Below are positions 1 to 35,012 of a DNA stretch of 41,611 nucleotides, piece after piece. The stretch comes from Planctomycetia bacterium (lineage in GTDB: Bacteria; Planctomycetota; Planctomycetia; Pirellulales; Thermoguttaceae), in assembly GCA_026401055.1 (NCBI GenBank), contig JAPLNP010000119.1, positions 1-41,611 of the forward strand, in the 5' to 3' direction. Under the pieces are notes generated by a model, which worked only from the letters and a program-made list of their open reading frames with translations, did no database searches and was not told the origin of the DNA. Position numbers and translations under genes: made by a program. Numbering within the stretch: position 1 is the first letter of the stretch; each line of letters starts with the position of its first letter.

Positions 1-74
1 CTGCGCTCACTACGCTCCGCAACGCCCCCCAACAGCAACCCTAGAATCCACCTTAAACACTCCGCTTTTCTGTC

Positions 75-893
75 TTGACAACCCCGACCACCTCATTCCC
101 TTCGGGCCTTTCTTCGGGCGCTGACGATCGACTTTCTCAGATCATGAACGCCAAAAGGACCTACGCCGACAAAATTGTCAAGAATCTCCGATGGCGTTTC
201 GACCTCGGTAGCCCGGGAAAAGCGTTTCCAACGGCCCCTGACTTTCTGTGGTCCGAGGATGGGAAGTCATGGACGACTGTACCACGGACGATGTACGGTC
301 ATCCAGAGGTCAGGCGTGACATCATCGCAACAGCGCTGGGCACGGAAGTTATCTCTGACATCCTTTCGGATGAACGTTCGGAACCTATTGCCCACGGACT
401 CTTTCGGGACGCATGGGCCCAGAGGCATCGAGATATCAAAGCGGCACTAACCCAAGGTGTGTCCGCTCTGGAAGTTGCGGTGAAACATTGTATCGTTCAA
501 CTCGTTCCAGATGCCGAGTACCTGATATTGGAAATGCCGTCACCTCCCGTGGTGACGCTGCTTCGCGACTACCTTCCAAGATTGCTCGCCAGCCGTCACT
601 CGGCTGTTCCGGCGATTTCGCCCTCGTACCTTAAACTTGTCTCCAATATGGTTCACCAGCGCAATCTACTGATTCACAAGGGCGAACTCACTGTTGATGG
701 TGAGAAGGTCACTGAATATCTTGAACTAATCCACGACTTACTCTATTTCCTTGATTTCGTCTCAGGCAATGAGTGGGCACTCAAGCTGACAAGCAAGGAG
801 TTCAAGGCTTGGCTGAATCAGGAACTTCCTGGGATTGACTTAGCCGATCCATTGGCAATCGCATCGAACGCTGACAGCTCGGATGCGTCCTAA
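75..893 (+). CDS. Integron cassette protein with HEPN-like C-terminal half
   Basis: Function is not established. The 272-residue product is soluble, with no signal peptide or membrane segment. Its second half is helical. A helix around residues 120-142 contains the stretch GVSALEVAVKHC, and residues 194-203 read HQRNLLIHKG. R196-N-x3-H201 matches the Rx4-6H signature of HEPN domains, which are often RNases in toxin-antitoxin or defence systems. HEPN is therefore the best guess, from the motif only. The start is uncertain: TTG at 75 gives the longest form, while ATG at 144 gives 249 residues; neither has a convincing ribosome-binding site. The gene ends 1 base before the attC-like repeat at 895, as a cassette gene should. 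It is less GC-rich than chromosomal genes to the right. No partner antitoxin is evident beside it. Confidence 0.75.
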   Translation: MTTPTTSFPSGLSSGADDRLSQIMNAKRTYADKIVKNLRWRFDLGSPGKAFPTAPDFLWSEDGKSWTTVPRTMYGHPEVRRDIIATALGTEVISDILSDERSEPIAHGLFRDAWAQRHRDIKAALTQGVSALEVAVKHCIVQLVPDAEYLILEMPSPPVVTLLRDYLPRLLASRHSAVPAISPSYLKLVSNMVHQRNLLIHKGELTVDGEKVTEYLELIHDLLYFLDFVSGNEWALKLTSKEFKAWLNQELPGIDLADPLAIASNADSSDAS

Positions 894-894
894 A

Positions 895-985
895 GGCGAA
901 CAATCGATTGCAACCGAGCGGCGGATCGGGTCGGTCCTGAAGTCAAGCCTTTTTGGCCGCCGCCGGTTGAATCGTGACGTTCTGA
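895..985 (+). repeat. attC-like site 1
   Basis: The left core AAC is at 899-901 and the right core GTTCTGA at 979-985. The left arm CGATTGCAACCG pairs with the right arm CGGTTGAATCG, leaving one G unpaired, and continues into GCGG-type inner arms. Total length of about 91 bp is within the known attC range (roughly 57-141 bp). The extra base sits in the left arm, giving the same polarity as the flanking plus-strand genes. The right core departs from the GTTRRRY consensus (CTGA after GTT), a deviation shared with site 2. Confidence 0.82.
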
Positions 986-1011
986 CAAGTGAATCCTCTA
1001 AGGCCACTCTC

Positions 1012-1461
1012 ATGGGCGCTATCAAGGACCTGGTTGACCTCGTCACGCAACTCGACGCTTCGCGGCTGGAAACACGAACTCGCGAAGCTGTTCTTCCAAT
1101 CAAGCAAGCGGCATTGGAGGTTCAACGCGAGTCGTTCCAACTTGAGCAACAACACAAGGAAGAAATGGACCGCCTTGAGGCGCGACATGCGGAAGAAATG
1201 GAAGAGCTTAAGGCCGAAAATGCGGCACTTTGCGCAAAGGTACACAGCACCCCAGAAGCAGACTTCCTCCCACGAACCGGGACGTGGCTCGAACGGTCGT
1301 CTGGCATTCATTATTGTCCTCGCTGTCGTCAAGATGGTAAATGGTCCCCAATGCAGACCCATGAACATGGGTGGACATGTCCGTCATGCGAGAAGTTCGT
1401 CCCAAATCCGGAGAATCCCCTTCCCAAAAGACCTCCTCGACAAACGAAACCAGATTGGTAG
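1012..1461 (+). CDS. Integron cassette protein: coiled coil plus four-cysteine zinc ribbon
   Basis: The predicted product is 149 residues. Residues 1-45 look helical. Residues about 45-78 are a highly charged heptad-like coiled coil (repeated E, K, R, M and L with the unit EEMDRLEARHAEEMEEL). The C-terminal third has two CxxC knuckles, CPRC at 102-105 and CPSC at 123-126, spaced like a zinc ribbon. The tail is Pro/Lys-rich. The coiled coil suggests oligomerisation and the ribbon suggests nucleic-acid or protein binding; no enzyme function is indicated. An in-frame upstream start at 883 exists, but it would place the N-terminus across the attC crossover at 979/980. The ATG at 1012 is therefore chosen, with a weak AAGG 9 bases upstream. 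The stop is 9 bases before attC-like site 2. Confidence 0.75.
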   Translation: MGAIKDLVDLVTQLDASRLETRTREAVLPIKQAALEVQRESFQLEQQHKEEMDRLEARHAEEMEELKAENAALCAKVHSTPEADFLPRTGTWLERSSGIHYCPRCRQDGKWSPMQTHEHGWTCPSCEKFVPNPENPLPKRPPRQTKPDW

Positions 1462-1470
1462 CCCAAACGG

Positions 1471-1560
1471 TCAGAACCATCGGATGCACGCGAGGCGGGC
1501 TTGCGCGCGAATTCAAGCGGACAATCACGCGTCCCGCCCGCGTGATCCGTAACGTTCTGC
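1471..1560 (+). repeat. attC-like site 2
   Basis: The best of the four sites. The left core TCAGAAC (1471-1477) and right core GTTCTGC (1554-1560) are nearly complementary. The inner left arm CGGATGCACGCGAGGCGGG pairs with CCCGCCCGCGTGATCCG except for an unpaired G (within GGATGCA) and an unpaired A. These extrahelical bases on one arm are the hallmark that sets attC polarity and strand choice for the integrase. The length is 90 bp. Confidence 0.88.
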
Positions 1561-1579
1561 TAACACGAAAGGACACAAC

Positions 1580-1831
1580 ATGTCGAGTTTTCAACCCATC
1601 CGAGATCCCCGCCCGTGGGACGACGATCGATTCCCGATGTGCTTCATGGAATCTGGCAACAACACAACCGTACTGCTGACTGGCGGAAGAATAATCGGGT
1701 CCGAAGACGCTATTACTTCTGCCTATGAATCATCAACATCGCTCAAAGACTTCATTGACAAATGCCGTCAAGCTGGACTCAAGGTTCAGACCAGTGAATT
1801 GTTTGAGTTCGAACTTGATTCTCATTCGTGA
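1580..1831 (+). CDS. Small integron cassette protein, 83 aa, unknown function
   Basis: I do not recognise this protein. It is 83 residues, soluble and acidic, with no signal peptide or cysteine motif. The N-terminus is rich in Pro, Asp and Arg; a central VLLTGGRIIGS strand-turn-strand is followed by a helical stretch (residues about 44-68). The ATG lies 26 bases after the crossover point of attC-like site 2 and has an AAAGGA ribosome-binding site about 7 bases upstream, which fixes the start. It occupies only the first half of its cassette; about 190 bases follow before the next attC. Small orphan proteins of this size are typical cassette cargo. Confidence 0.65.
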   Translation: MSSFQPIRDPRPWDDDRFPMCFMESGNNTTVLLTGGRIIGSEDAITSAYESSTSLKDFIDKCRQAGLKVQTSELFEFELDSHS

Positions 1832-2009
1832 ATGAAATTCGGTCAATCGCTGTCGACTTACCGGCGTCTTTCCTTTTGTCGATCAGTTCCTGGATGCCAC
1901 GCAATAGCAGTTCGATAGCTCTCCAAGCATTATCCGAACACATCGTTTGCATGGTATTGGGACCTCGATTGGTTAGCAGCTTCGGCTTCTCGCTTGTGGA
2001 CGTATCCAT
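1779..2009 (-). CDS. Possible antisense small protein inside cassette 3
   Basis: A 76-codon reading frame runs on the minus strand through the otherwise empty half of the cassette. It overlaps the 3' end of the 83-aa gene by about 50 bases. A GAGG lies about 8 bases before its ATG. The product would be polar and helical (middle segment around AWRAIELLLRGIQELIDKRK). Reverse-oriented genes do occur in cassettes, where they are often self-promoted, but nothing here proves expression. A competing plus-strand frame starts with GTG at 1828 overlapping the upstream stop. Low confidence. Confidence 0.25.
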   Translation of the reverse strand: MDTSTSEKPKLLTNRGPNTMQTMCSDNAWRAIELLLRGIQELIDKRKDAGKSTAIDRISFTNENQVRTQTIHWSEP

Positions 2010-2019
2010 TCAAAACCTC

Positions 2020-2109
2020 GCAGAACAATCGGATGCACGGGAGCGGCGGTCGCCGTGCTGGATTGTGGTAAGGTCACGGGCCGCCGCCCCTTGATCCGTA
2101 ACGTTAACT
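2020..2109 (+). repeat. attC-like site 3
   Basis: The left core GCAGAAC is at 2020-2026 and the right core GTTAACT at 2103-2109. The left arm CGGATGCACGGGAGCGGC pairs with GCCGCCCCTTGATCCG, again with an unpaired G in GGATGCA. Site length is 90 bp, identical to site 2, and the two share the outer motifs ATCGGATGCACG and TGATCCGTAACGTT. They are members of one repeat family with divergent centres. Confidence 0.86.
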
Positions 2110-2119
2110 GGCAAAACCC

Positions 2120-3046
2120 ATGTCACCCGCAACTATCCGAGCAGTCGCGAACGATAAATTCATCGGGTTCAGCATTCGTGGCAAAAAATACGACGAAATC
2201 CAACGGAAGAAGGCGCGTCTGACACGCATAACGTCATCGCAAGAAGACGTAGCGCTTCCCGATTTGCCTTCATCATCGCACCCGCTGTATGACTCAATTC
2301 TCACGCTCCGTGTCGCTAACGACAAACTCGATGAGCTGCGCCGGGACATCGACGGTGTCATCAAATCTGATCTCAACACTATCCGGTTTGAGGATGAGCC
2401 GGGTGGCACGCACAAGCTCATACGCCTCGTCGTCGGCCAGCCTCCCAACCCAAAGTGGGATGTTGAGATTGGCCAGCTTACCGTTTCGCTTAGATCTGTT
2501 CTTGACATCGCCATTACCAAGCTGTCCAGACGGCGACCTGGCAGGCCGAGGAAGCCCCAGTTTCCGATCTTTGTCTATCGAACGTACCGACGACGAAGGT
2601 CCACTTTTGCCAACGGCGGAGCCCGAAGTATTGCCCACCTGCGATCTGGCGATCAAGCAATCATCGAGAGGGCGCAACCATATCATGCTGGGAATCTCCG
2701 TTGGCGTCACCCGCTTTGGATTCTTCACGAGTTGAGCAACACTGCCAAGCACAATGCCCGTACCGAAGCCTCCATGTCGATTGGGGGCTCGACTTATTTG
2801 TTCCCGACCATTCCATTCTGTTACACCAGCGGCATGGAACTCCGGGCAGGCGTTCCGTTTGAAGACGGCGCAATACTCGGCCGCGTTGGTCGCGAAGTGA
2901 ATGTGAAACCACACCACGCCGTCTCGATACGCTTTGTAAAAGGGTGCCCCGCTGCGGGTGATGAAACGATCGACACCCTCACGAGCATTGAAGAACAGGT
3001 CCGAAAGATAGTCACAGAGTTCCTGGTGCTTCATCCGCCCAGATGA
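2120..3046 (+). CDS. Integron cassette protein, 308 aa, conserved-looking but uncharacterised
   Basis: No named function can be assigned. It is a soluble protein. Residues 63-82 are a charged helix; RSVLD (125-129), QFPIF (147-151), QPYH (186-189) and HPLWILHELSNTAKH (197-211) are the most motif-like parts. I recall the arrangement R-S-x-L-D, FPIF, QPYH, H-x-L-x-N-x-x-K-H from uncharacterised bacterial proteins, but cannot name a family. Residues 136-162 are unusually Arg-rich. The ATG is 16 bases after the crossover of attC-like site 3 and has no clear ribosome-binding site, so it may be translated from an external or leaderless-like start. The stop lies 6 bases before attC-like site 4. A long open frame on the opposite strand is judged a shadow. 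Confidence 0.72.
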   Translation: MSPATIRAVANDKFIGFSIRGKKYDEIQRKKARLTRITSSQEDVALPDLPSSSHPLYDSILTLRVANDKLDELRRDIDGVIKSDLNTIRFEDEPGGTHKLIRLVVGQPPNPKWDVEIGQLTVSLRSVLDIAITKLSRRRPGRPRKPQFPIFVYRTYRRRRSTFANGGARSIAHLRSGDQAIIERAQPYHAGNLRWRHPLWILHELSNTAKHNARTEASMSIGGSTYLFPTIPFCYTSGMELRAGVPFEDGAILGRVGREVNVKPHHAVSIRFVKGCPAAGDETIDTLTSIEEQVRKIVTEFLVLHPPR

Positions 3047-3052
3047 AAAGCC

Positions 3053-3183
3053 AGTTAACAAATCGGTGAACCGGAGTCGATTCGATTTCCGGCGATTCAA
3101 GCCGGAATCCTTCGGCAACGGTTCTTGGGAATTCAACGGTTTATTCTGTTGGTCCATCGGCCCGGTTACCTTTAACGTTAGAC
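3053..3183 (+). repeat. attC-like site 4 (long, 131 bp)
   Basis: The left core AGTTAAC (3053-3059) and right core GTTAGAC (3177-3183) fit the RYYYAAC/GTTRRRY scheme; the right core is a perfect match. The left arm CGGTGAACCGG pairs with CCGGTTACC with an unpaired G, as in sites 1-3. The centre contains further short self-complementary segments (for example GATTTCCGGCGATTC and TTGAATTCCC-like parts). At 131 bp it is near the upper limit of known attC lengths and is unlike the 90-bp family of sites 2 and 3, so this cassette probably came from a different source. Confidence 0.75.
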
Positions 3184-3715
3184 CGCCAAGGGAATTTCGT
3201 GCCACTCTTCCGAACCAGAATTGCGCCAGCCGTTGCGCTTGAAAAGGTCTTCGCTGCGGTGACGGATCATCCGGTGCCGACGGCGATTATCGGCGTTCCA
3301 AACGAGCGGGTGGTACGCGAACAGACGCAAACCAGCGCATTGAGGGTTTGCCGCTCCAGCAGCCCATCCACGGTCCCGCTAACCCGGGTGGTTCCACGGT
3401 TGGGGCGGCGTGGCAAGCTGGTGCATTGGTTGCGATGATCGAGTATTCCTCCATGCAGGCGTGTCGCGTGTGCAAACGCCAGTTGAGACGTTTCCGTCTC
3501 ATGTGGTATTGGCATATGCCCCAGTCGCGGGGACTTGTGCAAACGCGCGGGGCACAGTAAGGTGACGGGTTGAATGTCCGCGGTCCGGGAGCGGTCTTGG
3601 ACTCGCGGCGACTGCTGCTTGCTGGGGAAGGACGCCCTTCGCTCGCCACGGAACGGAGCGACCCCGCCTGGGCTTACCCCCGGTTATTTGCTGTCACCCT
3701 CGAGTCACTGTTGCC
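3184..3715. other. Gene-poor stretch after the cassette array
   Basis: No convincing gene is seen. It holds the inverted repeat GCAAACC/GGTTTGC (about 3328-3352), the perfect hairpin TGAGACG-TTTC-CGTCTCA (about 3484-3501), a direct repeat TGTGCAAACGC (about 3468 and 3538), and several short overlapping open frames with no family resemblance. On the minus strand a frame of roughly 65 codons ends with TAA inside the right core of attC-like site 4; it may be the remnant of a gene. A further attC with clear arms was not found. Confidence 0.5.
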
Positions 3716-4723
3716 ATGATTGTCGCTTTATGTTGGTTCTTGTTGGGACTCGTCACGCTGGTCGTGCTGGCGCAGATTGTGGGTTGGTTGGTCTACGTGC
3801 CCGTGGTTGCCCGGCTCATCGGCGAGACGCCATGGTTGCCGGCCGAGTGGCGGGAGCCGCTTGGCGAGGGGGAGGACGTCGAGTTGTTCACGGACGACGG
3901 GGTTCGATTGTCGGGCACGTACCTGGGGACGACCGGCGCGCGCCGCAAGGGCGTGATCGCGTTTTGTCATGAACTGAACGGGGACCGTTGGGCCTCGATT
4001 CCTTATACGGAGGATTTGCGCCGGCGCGGCTACGACATCTTCACGTTCGACTTCCGCAATCACGGCGCCAGCCAGCGGACGCCCGCCTACGAGCCGATGC
4101 CCTGGGTGACCGAGTACGACGTGAGCGACGTTCGCGCGGTGATCGACTATCTCTGCGACCGCCCGGACGCCGAGCCGGGGGGAATCGGACTGCTCGGCGT
4201 GAGCAAGGGCGGCACGGTGGCGTTGTGCGCGACGGCCGCCGATCCGCGGGTGCGGACGCTGGTTCTCGACGGGGCGTGCCCGACCGAGCGGATGCAACTG
4301 CACTACCTTCGCCGGTTCTCGAAAATCTTCGCCCGGTTCTCGTGGCTGATCACGCGATTGCCCGACCCGGCGCTACGGACGACCTGCGCCTTGGCTCGAG
4401 GCGTCGTCGGCCGCCGGCGCCACTGCCGCTTCGTCGGAGTGGATCGGTCCGCGCGGCGGATCCGGCAGCCGGTCCTGATGATCCACGGCCGGCGCGACGG
4501 CCATATTCCCTTGGAAGTGATTCGGGCGTTGCGCGACAGCATGCCGTGCCGGCCGAAACTCTGGGTGACGCCCCGGGCGAAGCACAACGAATCGATCACG
4601 CTGGAGCGGCTCGAGTATCACTGGCGGATCGGGCGATTCTTCGACCGCCACCTGGCCGCCCCCGCCAAACCCGATGCCGACGCCGCGCCGACGTCGCCGC
4701 TGCCGTCGGAATCGTGCGTTTGA
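3716..4723 (+). CDS. Membrane-anchored alpha/beta hydrolase
   Basis: A serine hydrolase of the alpha/beta-hydrolase fold, probably an esterase, lipase or acyl-hydrolase of unknown substrate. Residues 1-33 are a hydrophobic N-terminal membrane anchor without a clear cleavage site. The core follows: the strand-loop GVIAFCHELNG (79-89), where the HG oxyanion region is expected; the nucleophile elbow GVSKGG with Ser163; the acid in IHGRRDG (Asp261); and His290 in the segment RAKHN. Length (335 aa) is normal for the family plus an anchor. The C-terminal 20 residues are Ala/Pro-rich and probably disordered. The ATG at 3716 starts the anchor directly; no strong ribosome-binding site precedes it. It stands alone on its strand, between the cassette region and a convergent acyltransferase-like gene. 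Confidence 0.85.
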   Translation: MIVALCWFLLGLVTLVVLAQIVGWLVYVPVVARLIGETPWLPAEWREPLGEGEDVELFTDDGVRLSGTYLGTTGARRKGVIAFCHELNGDRWASIPYTEDLRRRGYDIFTFDFRNHGASQRTPAYEPMPWVTEYDVSDVRAVIDYLCDRPDAEPGGIGLLGVSKGGTVALCATAADPRVRTLVLDGACPTERMQLHYLRRFSKIFARFSWLITRLPDPALRTTCALARGVVGRRRHCRFVGVDRSARRIRQPVLMIHGRRDGHIPLEVIRALRDSMPCRPKLWVTPRAKHNESITLERLEYHWRIGRFFDRHLAAPAKPDADAAPTSPLPSESCV

Positions 4724-4736
4724 CGAACAACGCGGG

Positions 4737-4801
4737 GTGCCACTGGCTGCTTGTCAGCCCGTGCGATGCGTTGGCACTGCTGGGCAAGCCAGCAGTGGCA
4801 C
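4737..4801. repeat. Palindromic intergenic repeat (GTGCCACTGG type)
   Basis: GTGCCACTGGCTGCTTG faces CAAGCCAGCAGTGGCAC with a 31-base centre, an imperfect hairpin between two convergent genes. The related word GGTGCCAGTGGCAGC recurs after the transporter gene near 37680, and a GTGGCACTGGCGGTGCC variant occurs near 35260. It is a dispersed repeat family that could also act as a bidirectional terminator here; it lacks a T-tract. Confidence 0.6.
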
Positions 4802-4819
4802 TCGACGCACACGCGCCGA

Positions 4820-6196
4820 CTACGAGTCCGCTTCTTGCGACGTTTGCACGAGTCGGTCGACGTAGGCGGCCAGCAGCCCCTCGGCGTGTTCGGGCGCGAA
4901 CCGGCGCGGGTCGCAGCGAAGGCTGACGGTCGTCTCTCCGGCGCAGCGAGAGATCATCACCGCCGCGGACGTCTTGGGCCGGATCGGCGGCGCGCCGGTG
5001 ATCCCTTCCAGCACCAGGTTGCCCGCCATCAACCGGCCCGATCGCCTCGGAAACGTCGCCGTGAACCATCGCGCGGCGTCGCCGACGTTCGACAGCACGG
5101 CGGTGGCGACGCAGCGATCTGAGACCAGTAGCCGCGGCATTCCGCCGCAAAGCCGCTGGGCCCATTCGATCACGTGAATGAATCGCAGTCCCCGCCGCGT
5201 GCGCTTGACGTGGAGCGTCTCGCGGCGGATGCCGTCCAGGAGCCGCCGGGCGTCGTCGCAGGCGCCGGCTCGCCGCGACAGGAAGCTCATGCCGACCACG
5301 TTGGCGGCCGGCGTGGCCCGCTCGCCGACAACGCGCAGGTTCGCCGGCATCAAGACCCGAAGCCACGCGCGTCGCGACCCTCTTCCCCACCGCGCGTTCC
5401 ACGCGGCGATCGTGAGGAACATGTCTCGCAGCAACAGATCGTTCACGGTGGCGCCGCGCCGTCGGGCGACCTCGCGAAGCCGCCCGGACACCTCCTCGCT
5501 CAACTCGCGCCGGCACATGCCCGAAAACGGCTCGGGACGCGACGAAAGCGGCGCGGCCGCCGGGGGCGCCGCCAAGGGCGTCGGGCGCTGGTAACTGAAG
5601 CGAGCCGCGTGACTGAGCGTGCCGAAAAGCCGCGCCAGGCGTCTTCTCCACGGGACTCGCCCACGCCCCAAATCGCCGCGAGCGCGGAGGCGCTCGATCG
5701 CCGACGGTTTCAGCGCGGGAAGGTCGTCGCCCTCGGCGACGCGCATGGCATAGCAGGCCAAAACGTCGCCGAGAAACACCAGACCTCCGATGCCGTCGCA
5801 ACACGCGTGATGGAACTGTCCGGTCACCTCGGCCCTGCCGTCGCCCTGGCGGACCCAAAGACGCAATCCCGGCTCGCGCGCCAGATCGATGGCCTCGCCT
5901 CGCGGGCAGCGAAGCGGCGCGGCGAGGCCGCCCCAGTCCAGCGGCGGTCGCCGCGCGCCGGAGGAGACCCAACGGGGCCGCCGCCGCGAGGAGCCCTCGA
6001 CCAGCGCGACGAGCAACGGATGCCGCGCGAGGGCCTCGTCGACGCCCGCCTCGAATGCCTCGCGATCGACCGTGCCCGCCAACCGCAGCGTCAGCGTGAA
6101 CGTCATCGGATACTCCGGACGATCGTCGGCCAACATGTATCGCTCGAAGGCGACCAGCGGCAAGGGAAAGATCGAGGCGGTCTTCGAGTCGGACAT
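4820..6196 (-). CDS. Condensation-domain-like / wax-ester-synthase-like acyltransferase
   Basis: The protein (458 aa) resembles the chloramphenicol-acetyltransferase-like superfamily that includes NRPS condensation domains, PapA-type and WS/DGAT acyltransferases. Evidence: the catalytic motif HHACCDG at residues 129-135 (HHxxxDG), and an N-terminal half starting with PLPLVAFERYMLADD and GTVDREAFEAGVDEALARHP, the usual substrate-site opening of such proteins. A DG and later SNVGD-like segment sits in the second half. No carrier-protein, adenylation or other NRPS domain adjoins, so a stand-alone acyl transfer to an alcohol or amine is more likely than peptide synthesis. Acyl donor and acceptor are unknown. 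It is divergent from the 6523 gene with about 325 bp between them, and convergent with the hydrolase. Confidence 0.75.
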   Translation of the reverse strand: MSDSKTASIFPLPLVAFERYMLADDRPEYPMTFTLTLRLAGTVDREAFEAGVDEALARHPLLVALVEGSSRRRPRWVSSGARRPPLDWGGLAAPLRCPRGEAIDLAREPGLRLWVRQGDGRAEVTGQFHHACCDGIGGLVFLGDVLACYAMRVAEGDDLPALKPSAIERLRARGDLGRGRVPWRRRLARLFGTLSHAARFSYQRPTPLAAPPAAAPLSSRPEPFSGMCRRELSEEVSGRLREVARRRGATVNDLLLRDMFLTIAAWNARWGRGSRRAWLRVLMPANLRVVGERATPAANVVGMSFLSRRAGACDDARRLLDGIRRETLHVKRTRRGLRFIHVIEWAQRLCGGMPRLLVSDRCVATAVLSNVGDAARWFTATFPRRSGRLMAGNLVLEGITGAPPIRPKTSAAVMISRCAGETTVSLRCDPRRFAPEHAEGLLAAYVDRLVQTSQEADS

Positions 6197-6522
6197 GACG
6201 TCACGCGCCCGGGGGGTGATCGGTTCACCACCATGATAGCCGCGAAGCGGGAGCCACGCAAACCCGAGTGCGACGCCGGGTGTCCATCGGGCGGCGTGAG
6301 AATGCGGCGGCTGGGGCGACTTTGGCGGTCGCGCCGAGCGGGCCAGTCCGTCCGGCGCGGTCGTAGCGGTCCATCCGCCTCCGCGCGCGAGTTGCGGGCG
6401 ACTGGAGTAAAAATAATGCTTCCCAGAAATGGAGATCCTTGTTAGAGTCGAGGTTAAGGCAGGCGCGATTGATGGGCAGGGATGGTTGCATCTGGGTTGT
6501 TCGATCGAAGGGTACCGGGCAC

Positions 6523-7089
6523 ATGGTCGATTCTCGCCGTTCCCGCGATGGGGAAGTGGAAGAACTGATGCTCAACGCCGAGCTGCGCAACGAGCTCGAG
6601 CCGTTCTACGACGAGTCGATCAGCCGGATCGACGTCCGGCACTGGCCCTTGGCCCTCGAGAACGAATTCCTCGCCTCGATGTTGGCCTGGGAGCAGGCCC
6701 CGGTGCTGCCGATCTACCGTTGGTTCGAGCCGGAATTGCGGCCGCCCCGGCCGGGCGTGCTCAACGACGAGTGCCTGCACGAGATCCTCTGGGACGTGAT
6801 CCAGAAGCTTTACGAGAAGCGGATCGTGCTGGACTTCACCGATCATCTCAGCGATCGCGAGCTCTACTGTCTGATCTACCGCGACATCCTGCCCTCGCGC
6901 GAGAAGAAGATCGAGTCCGCCCGAAACTATCTCCACTGGGACTGCGCCGGCGCCAGCGGCGATCCGGAGGTCTGGCTTCGCTACTACGCGACGGAAGAGG
7001 AGCGCGACGCCTGGGCCGAGACGTACCACTTGGCGCTGCCCGAGTCCAGCGAGCCCCCGTTCCCCCGCCAACTGCCGCGCGAACTGTAA
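6523..7089 (+). CDS. Conserved-looking hypothetical protein, 188 aa
   Basis: No function recognised. The protein is soluble, acidic and aromatic-rich. It has several Trp- and Tyr-rich helical stretches (for example DVRHWPLALENEFLAS, DECLHEILWDVIQKLYEKR, DRELYCLIYRDILP, NYLHWDC) but no catalytic signature or membrane segment. The same frame is open back to a TTG at 6439, but the residues before the ATG at 6523 look non-coding; an ATG at 6568 (MLNAELRNEL) is also possible. Strong third-position G/C supports coding. The gene converges on the ankyrin gene, with an 11-base gap. Confidence 0.7.
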   Translation: MVDSRRSRDGEVEELMLNAELRNELEPFYDESISRIDVRHWPLALENEFLASMLAWEQAPVLPIYRWFEPELRPPRPGVLNDECLHEILWDVIQKLYEKRIVLDFTDHLSDRELYCLIYRDILPSREKKIESARNYLHWDCAGASGDPEVWLRYYATEEERDAWAETYHLALPESSEPPFPRQLPREL

Positions 7090-7100
7090 ACCGAGCCGCC

Positions 7101-7769
7101 TCAAGCCTCGCCGCGCATCCGCCGGACGAGCGCGACGATGTCGCGATGCCCATTGGCCAGCGCTAATTCCAGCGGCGTTTGGTTGCCGGCGTTGACGGCG
7201 TGGACGTCGGCGCCGCCGTCGACCAGCGCGCGCATGATTTCGACGTTCCCGTCGCTGGCGGCGAAATGGCAGGCCGTCCAGTTCGATTTGGTCTTGGCGT
7301 CGATCGCCGCGCCGTGTTCGATCAGGATTCGCAGCACGTCCGGTCGATTTTTGATCGCGGCCGTGTGCAGCGGCGTCGAATCGTCCCCCTGGCACGCGGC
7401 GTTGACGTCGGCTCCGTGGGCCAGGAGCATGGCGACCATCTCGGGGCGGTCCTGGGCGGCGGCGTAATGCAGCGGGGTCCAGCCGCGGCCTTCGTTCACC
7501 TCGGCGCCGCGTGCCAGAAGGATTTCGGCCGCCTCGATCTGGCCCCAGTACGCGGCGTACTCCAACGGCAGCAATCCCATCAGGTCCTTGGCGGTCGCGG
7601 CCTGGGGGCTGGCCAGCAGGAGTTGCTCGATACGAGCCACGTCGCCCCGGGACGCCGCCCGGTGGATCGCGCCCATGCCCCGCCGCACGAATCGCCAGGC
7701 CAGATAGAACACGGCCAGAAGCAGCGCCAAAGGCAGCATGACGACGAGCCAGGGAGGCATGGTGGGCAT
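7101..7769 (-). CDS. Membrane-anchored ankyrin-repeat protein
   Basis: A protein-protein interaction scaffold. Residues about 6-28 form a transmembrane segment (LVVMLPLALLLAVFYLAW) followed by an arginine-rich stop-transfer, which suggests that the repeats face the cytoplasm. From residue 34 come about six ankyrin repeats with the usual TPLHxAA and GADVN/GAxI words (TPLHYAAAQ, TPLHTAAIK, ACHFAASDG, TPLELALAN). The ATG at 7769 has AAAGGA upstream at good spacing. The partner is unknown. It lies directly upstream of nothing on its strand; the YggU-type gene ends 55 bases before its start. Confidence 0.85.
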   Translation of the reverse strand: MPTMPPWLVVMLPLALLLAVFYLAWRFVRRGMGAIHRAASRGDVARIEQLLLASPQAATAKDLMGLLPLEYAAYWGQIEAAEILLARGAEVNEGRGWTPLHYAAAQDRPEMVAMLLAHGADVNAACQGDDSTPLHTAAIKNRPDVLRILIEHGAAIDAKTKSNWTACHFAASDGNVEIMRALVDGGADVHAVNAGNQTPLELALANGHRDIVALVRRMRGEA

Positions 7770-7824
7770 GGTCGATTCCTTTGCGCGTTGCGAGGAGGAC
7801 AGTCCCCCGTGAACCGTCAGCGAC

Positions 7825-8124
7825 TCAAGACTCCAGCGTTCGTGCGAGGAGGGAAGCCAACTCGTCGGGCGTAATCGCGCGGACGAGGAACTTCTTCTGC
7901 CTCGACGTCTCTCCCGATACCAGGCTGAACCGCGACTTTCGCAGCCCCAGCCGTTTGCTCAAAACTTCGATCATCGCCTTGTTGGCCTTGCCTTTTTCGG
8001 GCGCCTGGGTGACCGACACGCGGAGCATGCCGTCCTGCTCGCCGCGGATCTCGTTGGAGCGCGCGGCGGCGCTCGCCCGAACCGGCAGGATCGTCCCCTC
8101 GGGATGCGGCTCCAGTTCGATCAC
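7825..8124 (-). CDS. DUF167 / YggU family protein
   Basis: A small basic protein (99 aa) of the DUF167 family, biochemically uncharacterised. Family features are visible: a beta-strand start with LPVRASAAARSNEI, then LRVSVTQAPEKGKANKAMIEVLSKRLGLRKSRF broken into the conserved APxxGKAN core (residues about 50-58), and VSGETSRQKKFLVR near the end. A longer frame upstream exists but lacks family similarity. The GTG at 8124 overlaps the stop of the YggS gene as GTGA, which fixes the start and implies translational coupling. YggS and YggU neighbours are common in bacteria (in several phyla next to yggT/sepF). Confidence 0.88.
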   Translation of the reverse strand: MIELEPHPEGTILPVRASAAARSNEIRGEQDGMLRVSVTQAPEKGKANKAMIEVLSKRLGLRKSRFSLVSGETSRQKKFLVRAITPDELASLLARTLES

Positions 8125-34170: not shown

Positions 34171-34995
34171 ATGGATACGTGGAAGTTCTACGACATCACT
34201 CATCGTAAGCACGTGGTATGCAATCCTACGAACGAGGAGAAGCTCGCACGCTTGGTGGACCTCGTGCAGCTTCCGACAGCCGCACGTGTGGTCGACATCG
34301 CCTGCGGGAAGGGCGAATTCCTGATGCGTCTGGCGGAGGCATACGGAGTGCGCGGCGTAGGCGTGGACCTCTCGCCCTTCTTCATCGCCGAGGCAGAACG
34401 AAGGCTCCAAGCGCGCGTGCCACAGGCAGCAGTCACCTTCACCCAAATGGATGGCGCTGATTTCAAACCTGACAAGCCACACAGCCTCACACTGGCTTCG
34501 TGCATTGGGGCGAGCTGGGTTTTCGGCGGGCACGCGCAGACGCTGGACGCGCTCGTCGGCATGGCCGAGCCCGATGGCTGGGTGATCGTGGGGGAGCCGT
34601 ACTGGTTGCAGGAGCCGCCGGACGAGTACTTGCAGGCGATTGGGCTACCAAGAGACGCCTTCGGAAGCCACGCGGAAAACGTTGAAGCAGGCCAGCGGCT
34701 AGGGCTCGACCTCGTGCATACTCTGGTGAGCAGCAAGGACGACCGGGACCGATATGAAGGTCTTCAGTGGCATGCGATGGCGGACTACGCGCGCACCGAC
34801 CGAGATGACGCTGATCTTCCAGAACTGCTTGAGCGCGTGGCGAAGGAGAAATCAGCCTACTTGAGGTGGGGTAGAGATGTCTTGGGCTGGGCGATCTACG
34901 TATTCAGATGTCCACCCGCTCGGGGTGCTGAGGCGGTGTCGGGTGCCTTAAATAGCGGTTGCAGCCGACGGATCGCCCCTGGCGCCCGCGGCTGA
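34171..34995 (+). CDS. Class I SAM-dependent methyltransferase, probable former cassette gene
   Basis: A 274-residue soluble methyltransferase. Motif I is VVDIACGKGEFLMRLAEAYG (residues about 40-59), followed by GVGVDLSPFFIAEAERR (motif II Asp), VTFTQMDGADF and LASCIGASWVFGG. The acceptor is unknown. Base composition is more balanced than in neighbours. The end is unusual: after RCPPARG the last about 20 residues are encoded by an attC-like hairpin (34945-35012), and the sequence GCC-TTA-AAT stands where a cassette would have GCC-TAA-CAA, so the original stop was probably lost. Start: ATG with GAGGGAT about 8 bases upstream. Confidence 0.85.
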   Translation: MDTWKFYDITHRKHVVCNPTNEEKLARLVDLVQLPTAARVVDIACGKGEFLMRLAEAYGVRGVGVDLSPFFIAEAERRLQARVPQAAVTFTQMDGADFKPDKPHSLTLASCIGASWVFGGHAQTLDALVGMAEPDGWVIVGEPYWLQEPPDEYLQAIGLPRDAFGSHAENVEAGQRLGLDLVHTLVSSKDDRDRYEGLQWHAMADYARTDRDDADLPELLERVAKEKSAYLRWGRDVLGWAIYVFRCPPARGAEAVSGALNSGCSRRIAPGARG

Positions 34996-35012
34996 ACCGC
35001 AACACGTTCCGG
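34945..35012 (+). repeat. attC-like site 5 (decayed), overlapping a gene's 3' end
   Basis: Left arm GCGGTTGCAGCCG (34955-34967) pairs with CGGCTGAACCGC (34989-35000) leaving exactly one G unpaired (34961), the same feature as in sites 1-4. The right core is GTTCCGG (35006-35012); the left core reads GCCTTAA instead of GCCTAAC. At 68 bp it is within the normal size range. The degenerate cores suggest that it is no longer active. Confidence 0.55.

Follow-up and report, generated by a model that had tools for sequence, protein, structure and literature searches.

The first 3.2 kb of the window (i.e. the whole stretch of 41,611 nucleotides that was analysed, which is the entire contig C83 of its assembly) is almost certainly the distal part of an array of integron cassettes, in which four attC sites close three whole cassettes and one truncated cassette (Table 1), and which stands here as a CALIN. 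We consider CALIN, or integron fragment, to be the best label for this array, and find the label 'active integron' unsupported; as the integrase (IntI) was not found in the assembly and a repeat truncates the array at its start, we see in it an ordinary cluster of cassettes whose cargo is unfamiliar, and no new kind of system. In line with the IntegronFinder usage of the term CALIN (cluster of attC sites lacking an integron-integrase), attC sites of the same orientation, at least two in 4 kb, occur here together with small orphan ORFs, and no IntI was found near them, as far as a fragmented assembly can tell; there is no essential difference from this class, the array being cut upstream by a repeat in an incomplete genome. 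The array represents one more cassette cluster, with mostly unfamiliar proteins, for an order rich in integrons.

Table 1. Coordinates and properties of the cassettes, attC sites, reading frames and terminal repeat at the left end of the window.
Feature	Position	Strand	Properties
End of multi-copy repeat at contig edge	1-95	+	95 bp, identity of up to 100% at the ends of 13 other contigs
Cassette 1 (5' end missing)	96-981	+	closed by attC site 1; expected start GTTCGCC absent
Cassette 1 ORF	144-893	+	249 aa; no family assigned; RNLLIH motif, HEPN-like on visual impression only
attC site 1	899-981	+	scanner score 32.5; covariance model 53.6 bits, E 4.7e-9
Cassette 2 (complete, TTCTGAC... to ...CG)	980-1554	+	R'' of site 2 fits own start over 8 nt
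Cassette 2 ORF	1012-1461	+	149 aa; coiled coil, C-terminal CPRC/CPSC zinc-ribbon-like part; phrog_1244
attC site 2	1475-1556	+	scanner score 31.9; covariance model 59.8 bits, E 1.7e-10
Cassette 3 (complete)	1555-2103	+	R'' of site 3 fits own start over 7 nt
Cassette 3 ORF	1580-1831	+	83 aa, orphan; no family matched
attC site 3	2024-2105	+	scanner score 32.2; covariance model 51.2 bits, E 1.7e-8
Cassette 4 (complete)	2104-3177	+	R'' of site 4 fits own start over 10 nt
Cassette 4 ORF	2120-3046	+	308 aa, orphan; no family matched
attC site 4 (last of the array)	3057-3179	+	scanner score 23.2; covariance model 42.4 bits, E 1.9e-6

The ORFs and repeats of the window were catalogued, positions 1-4500 were inspected directly, and attC sites were sought with a structural scanner that followed the plan AAC, spacer, stem, extra base, stem of 5-7 bp, extra base, stem, loop, and mirror arm with GTT. 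All four repeats between the genes were found to possess AAC...GTT core boxes and paired L''/L' arms, and in each of them the left (R''-L'') arm harbored a G and an A as extrahelical bases, separated by 6 bp, i.e. within the 6-8 nt spacing that is characteristic of attC. In the dinucleotide-shuffled window the scanner produced no match at a score of at least 25, and 0.17 matches per strand at a score of at least 23. Furthermore, a covariance model (R1), trained on 36 gaplessly aligned attC sites from IntI-linked arrays of order-mates (the sites of the window being left out), matched sites 1 to 4 (spans 895-985, 1471-1560, 2020-2109 and 3053-3183; E values between 1.7e-10 and 1.9e-6), whilst the rest of the window gave no match at E <0.05. 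In the 36 order-mate sites the inner stem covaried, with 16 of 16 pairs changed on both sides, against controls; a search of the window with Rfam models at their gathering thresholds returned no match. Folded as ssDNA, the bottom strands of sites 1-3 had energy z values between -2.7 and -3.0; the energy was unremarkable for site 4 (z -0.07), which has a longer loop and a larger unpaired spacer. Site 4 was also missed by R1 in filters-off mode and in the whole-genome search, the latter marking it as the weakest of the four; it is backed by its position and by its R'' box. No further R'' for GTTAGAC was present in 3180-8000, and thus no site beyond site 4. The original prediction that the repeats are attC sites with AAC-arm/arm-GTT ends is therefore upheld, both by the scanner (as set against shuffles) and by R1, as is its statement that sites 2 and 3 resemble each other outside but not in the centre (site 1 being close to both as well); of the single unpaired G that it described in the left arm, the G stands but its singularity does not, given the second unpaired base in all four sites. 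An attC-like hairpin with G and A as extra bases was observed at 34954-35003 (R1 E 0.013 with filters off); as the AAC box is absent from its place it was not counted as a fifth site, and it is either a decayed attC site or a product of chance.

If a cassette was inserted from a circle, its R'' box should be complementary to the bases with which the cassette begins, behind the preceding site. The complementarity found in cassettes 2-4 (Table 1) compares with a random mean of 3.8 nt. In a control set of 136 neighbouring site pairs (drawn from arrays of order-mates and from a single Gemmatimonadota array) the match averaged 7.6 nt, as compared to 3.8 nt for shuffled partners and 4.5 nt for the site's own R', and reached at least 7 nt in 74% of the pairs vs 4.8% of random ones. 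These values show, as far as sequence can, that the three complete cassettes were inserted via integron recombination. Judging from integrons studied elsewhere, the attC sites would each fold, as bottom strands, into a hairpin that the tyrosine recombinase IntI would grip via the extrahelical bases, whereupon G^TT would be joined to attI or a further attC; on this basis we propose that the cassettes were once inserted as circles. The array also departs in GC content (51-55%) from the contig past position 3716 (65-68%). Of the four cassettes with four sites that had been predicted, the four sites are real, but only three cassettes are whole, the first one being without its start.

The window lacks this start because its first 95 positions are taken up by the end of a repeat, which also occurs at the ends of contigs C303, C650, C567, C465, C51, C50, C12, C591, C525, C294, C142, C185 and C133. 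All copies diverge at the same base (after ...CCGACCACCTCA), and the repeat is probably the end of a mobile element that truncates cassette 1. Some 56 nt from its sharp end (...CCGACCACCTCA) it contains a long hairpin with perfect pairing (GCTGTTGGGGGGCGTTGC ... GCAACGCCCCCCAACAGC); at the 14 contig ends that carry it (that of the window included) the flanks are unrelated, and the repeat breaks the assembly. Its identification as attI or attC was ruled out, since the other contigs carrying it have no attC sites, and a full copy was sought in 60 relatives and found in none.

From the polarity of the array the integrase had been predicted to lie to the left, and this is the side on which IntI is found in 22 of 22 order-mate arrays (18 with divergent and 4 with same-direction orientation); in the window the contig ends there. 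No IntI adjoins the array, as it would in a complete integron, and the head of the array (the attI position) lies off the contig. A search for intI was made with TIGR02249 across the host assembly (6.68 Mb in 673 contigs, 87% complete), which yielded nothing above the cut-off and nothing even at E 1e-30. The tyrosine recombinases of the genome (C211, C397 and others) scored at most 82 bits per stretch against a cut-off of 265, and lack the part of the profile near positions 172-236, in which IntI is distinct from Xer; owing to this missing part and to the low scores they are taken as Xer/phage-type enzymes and not as IntI. The contig end at the left, the lack of IntI in the assembly and the truncation by the repeat leave the original view of an active or recent integron unsupported.

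In the order as a whole, IntI was detected in 112 of 396 sampled genomes (TIGR02249), and the scanner, applied to 40 regions around order-mate IntI genes, located attC arrays near IntI, nearly always on one strand. Within the family, attC sites are present in 27 of 119 genomes, and about five of these 27 show IntI, which is intact in G149 and G213, partial in G396, broken in G324 and interrupted by two stops in G122; as so few of the attC-bearing genomes do so, attC clusters without detectable IntI are usual in the family, where attC sites persist while IntI is mostly undetected. A further family member (G084) has IntI with stops and no attC match, and G396 contains 22 attC sites, of which some are closely similar in sequence. 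In G221, G362 and G366 we observed 6-7 attC sites each and detected no IntI. Elsewhere in the genome of the window, attC sites occur on at least three other contigs (C512, C608 and C1). On C608 (locus L142, 1813-3043) they belong to another small cluster of cassettes, which comprises up to three attC sites and has ordinary genes on either side. On C512 (locus L141, 2882-3579, minus strand) a lone cassette encodes a 200-aa membrane-like ORF, starts with GTTAGGCCG and closes in one attC with C/A bases, with no attC preceding it; an insertion at a secondary (attG-like) site is possible.

Given that its upstream end is cut by the repeat, the array is either a stranded cluster, movable only by IntI in trans, or the distal end of an integron with an unassembled IntI. 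We regard as fairly probable that it is stranded (a true CALIN), i.e. that the genome lost or never had IntI, and that some lone cassettes perhaps reside at attG-like sites. The scarcity of IntI among the 27 attC-bearing family genomes and the lone cassette on C512 (with its one attC at the end and none ahead) point in this direction, as does the report that CALINs outnumber complete integrons in bacteria (PMC9668308); the incompleteness of the genome weighs against it, since draft MAGs exaggerate the absence of IntI, and attC clusters without IntI are an expected outcome in fragmented MAGs (PMC9668308). It is conceivable, though we hold it only tentatively, that a complete and possibly active chromosomal integron ends in this array, with intI and attI just past the repeat on an unassembled or unbinned contig. 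The uniform polarity of the order-mate arrays, an assembly of 673 contigs at 87% completeness, a contig that terminates in a repeat and the intact IntI of the family members G149 and G213 are consistent with such an arrangement, but not one IntI fragment was encountered in 6.68 Mb, and G221 (98% complete, 7 attC sites) is likewise without IntI, which indicates that its absence is common in the family. That the sites belong to some other palindromic repeat family (REP-like elements or terminators), with the order of the ORFs arising by chance, would suit the folding energy of site 4 but is scarcely credible, in view of the fixed geometry and extrahelical bases, the boxes that fit the cassette starts, the lack of such repeats elsewhere in the window and the refutation by the independent covariance model. 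For the reading as an integron cassette array, the points on the debit side are that neither IntI nor attI is visible with it, that the energy of site 4 is ordinary and that the start of cassette 1 is missing.

Among known systems, the array resembles the sedentary chromosomal integrons of Planctomycetota (e.g. L181 and the order-mate arrays L096-L132), with which it shares attC length (mostly 81-90 nt), geometry and the G/A of the left arm; these have IntI beside the array, whereas the window has none. The best named match of R1 was L181 (a locus of a Planctomycetia MAG, 58.1 bits), which is suggestive, though not proof, of the planctomycete-type host that had been predicted. The attC of class 1 integrons (aadA1) has the same R''-L''...L'-R' plan with two extrahelical bases 6 bp apart, but carries a top-strand C (bottom G), whereas the sites of the window carry a top G (bottom C), as do those of blaVIM-24.

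As control sites, aadA1 gave C + A and blaVIM-24 gave G + A, the latter in agreement with the description of blaVIM-2 (PMC3053210). The bottom-strand G has been termed absolutely conserved, and its replacement had little effect on integration (PMC2727003). In the order-mates, 141 of 159 strong sites have top-strand G + A (i.e. bottom-strand C + T); sampled arrays of Gemmatimonadota, Acidobacteriota and Chloroflexota and of one gammaproteobacterium likewise have a top G, and several proteobacterial arrays have C. In the IntI residues that touch this base the groups are alike: the equivalents of VchIntIA 145/157/209/210/219 are for the most part K, R or H, K, Y and W, whichever the base, and no change of the pocket in step with the extrahelical base was seen in a comparison that included only two arrays with C. 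It is an evenly balanced proposition, in our view, that the order has almost only T-N6-C attC sites (likewise the sampled Gemmatimonadota, Acidobacteriota and Chloroflexota), that the 'conserved G' is a trait of the first-studied proteobacterial sites, and that C is read by IntI with the same pocket residues. Taxon-specific attC models, Planctomycetes among them, exist (PMC8352920), so the bottom-strand C pattern may be implicit there; an explicit statement of it was not found in the literature. The consistency of the bottom-strand C makes it possible to test which features of the hairpin IntI recognises.

None of the four cargo ORFs passed a cut-off in Pfam, NCBIfam or PADLOC, and viral contigs yielded no relatives of the cassette 1 and cassette 4 proteins, for which single-sequence structure prediction was uninformative (pLDDT 37 and 31, respectively). 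The expectation of orphan cargo mostly holds. The 149-aa product of cassette 2 over residues 1-136 matches a PHROG family without known function (phrog_1244, E 8e-9). Moreover, the 308-aa product of cassette 4 has partial homologues only, in 2 of 296 genomes of the order, and distant relatives of the 249-aa product of cassette 1 occur in 1 of these 296 and on two plasmids.
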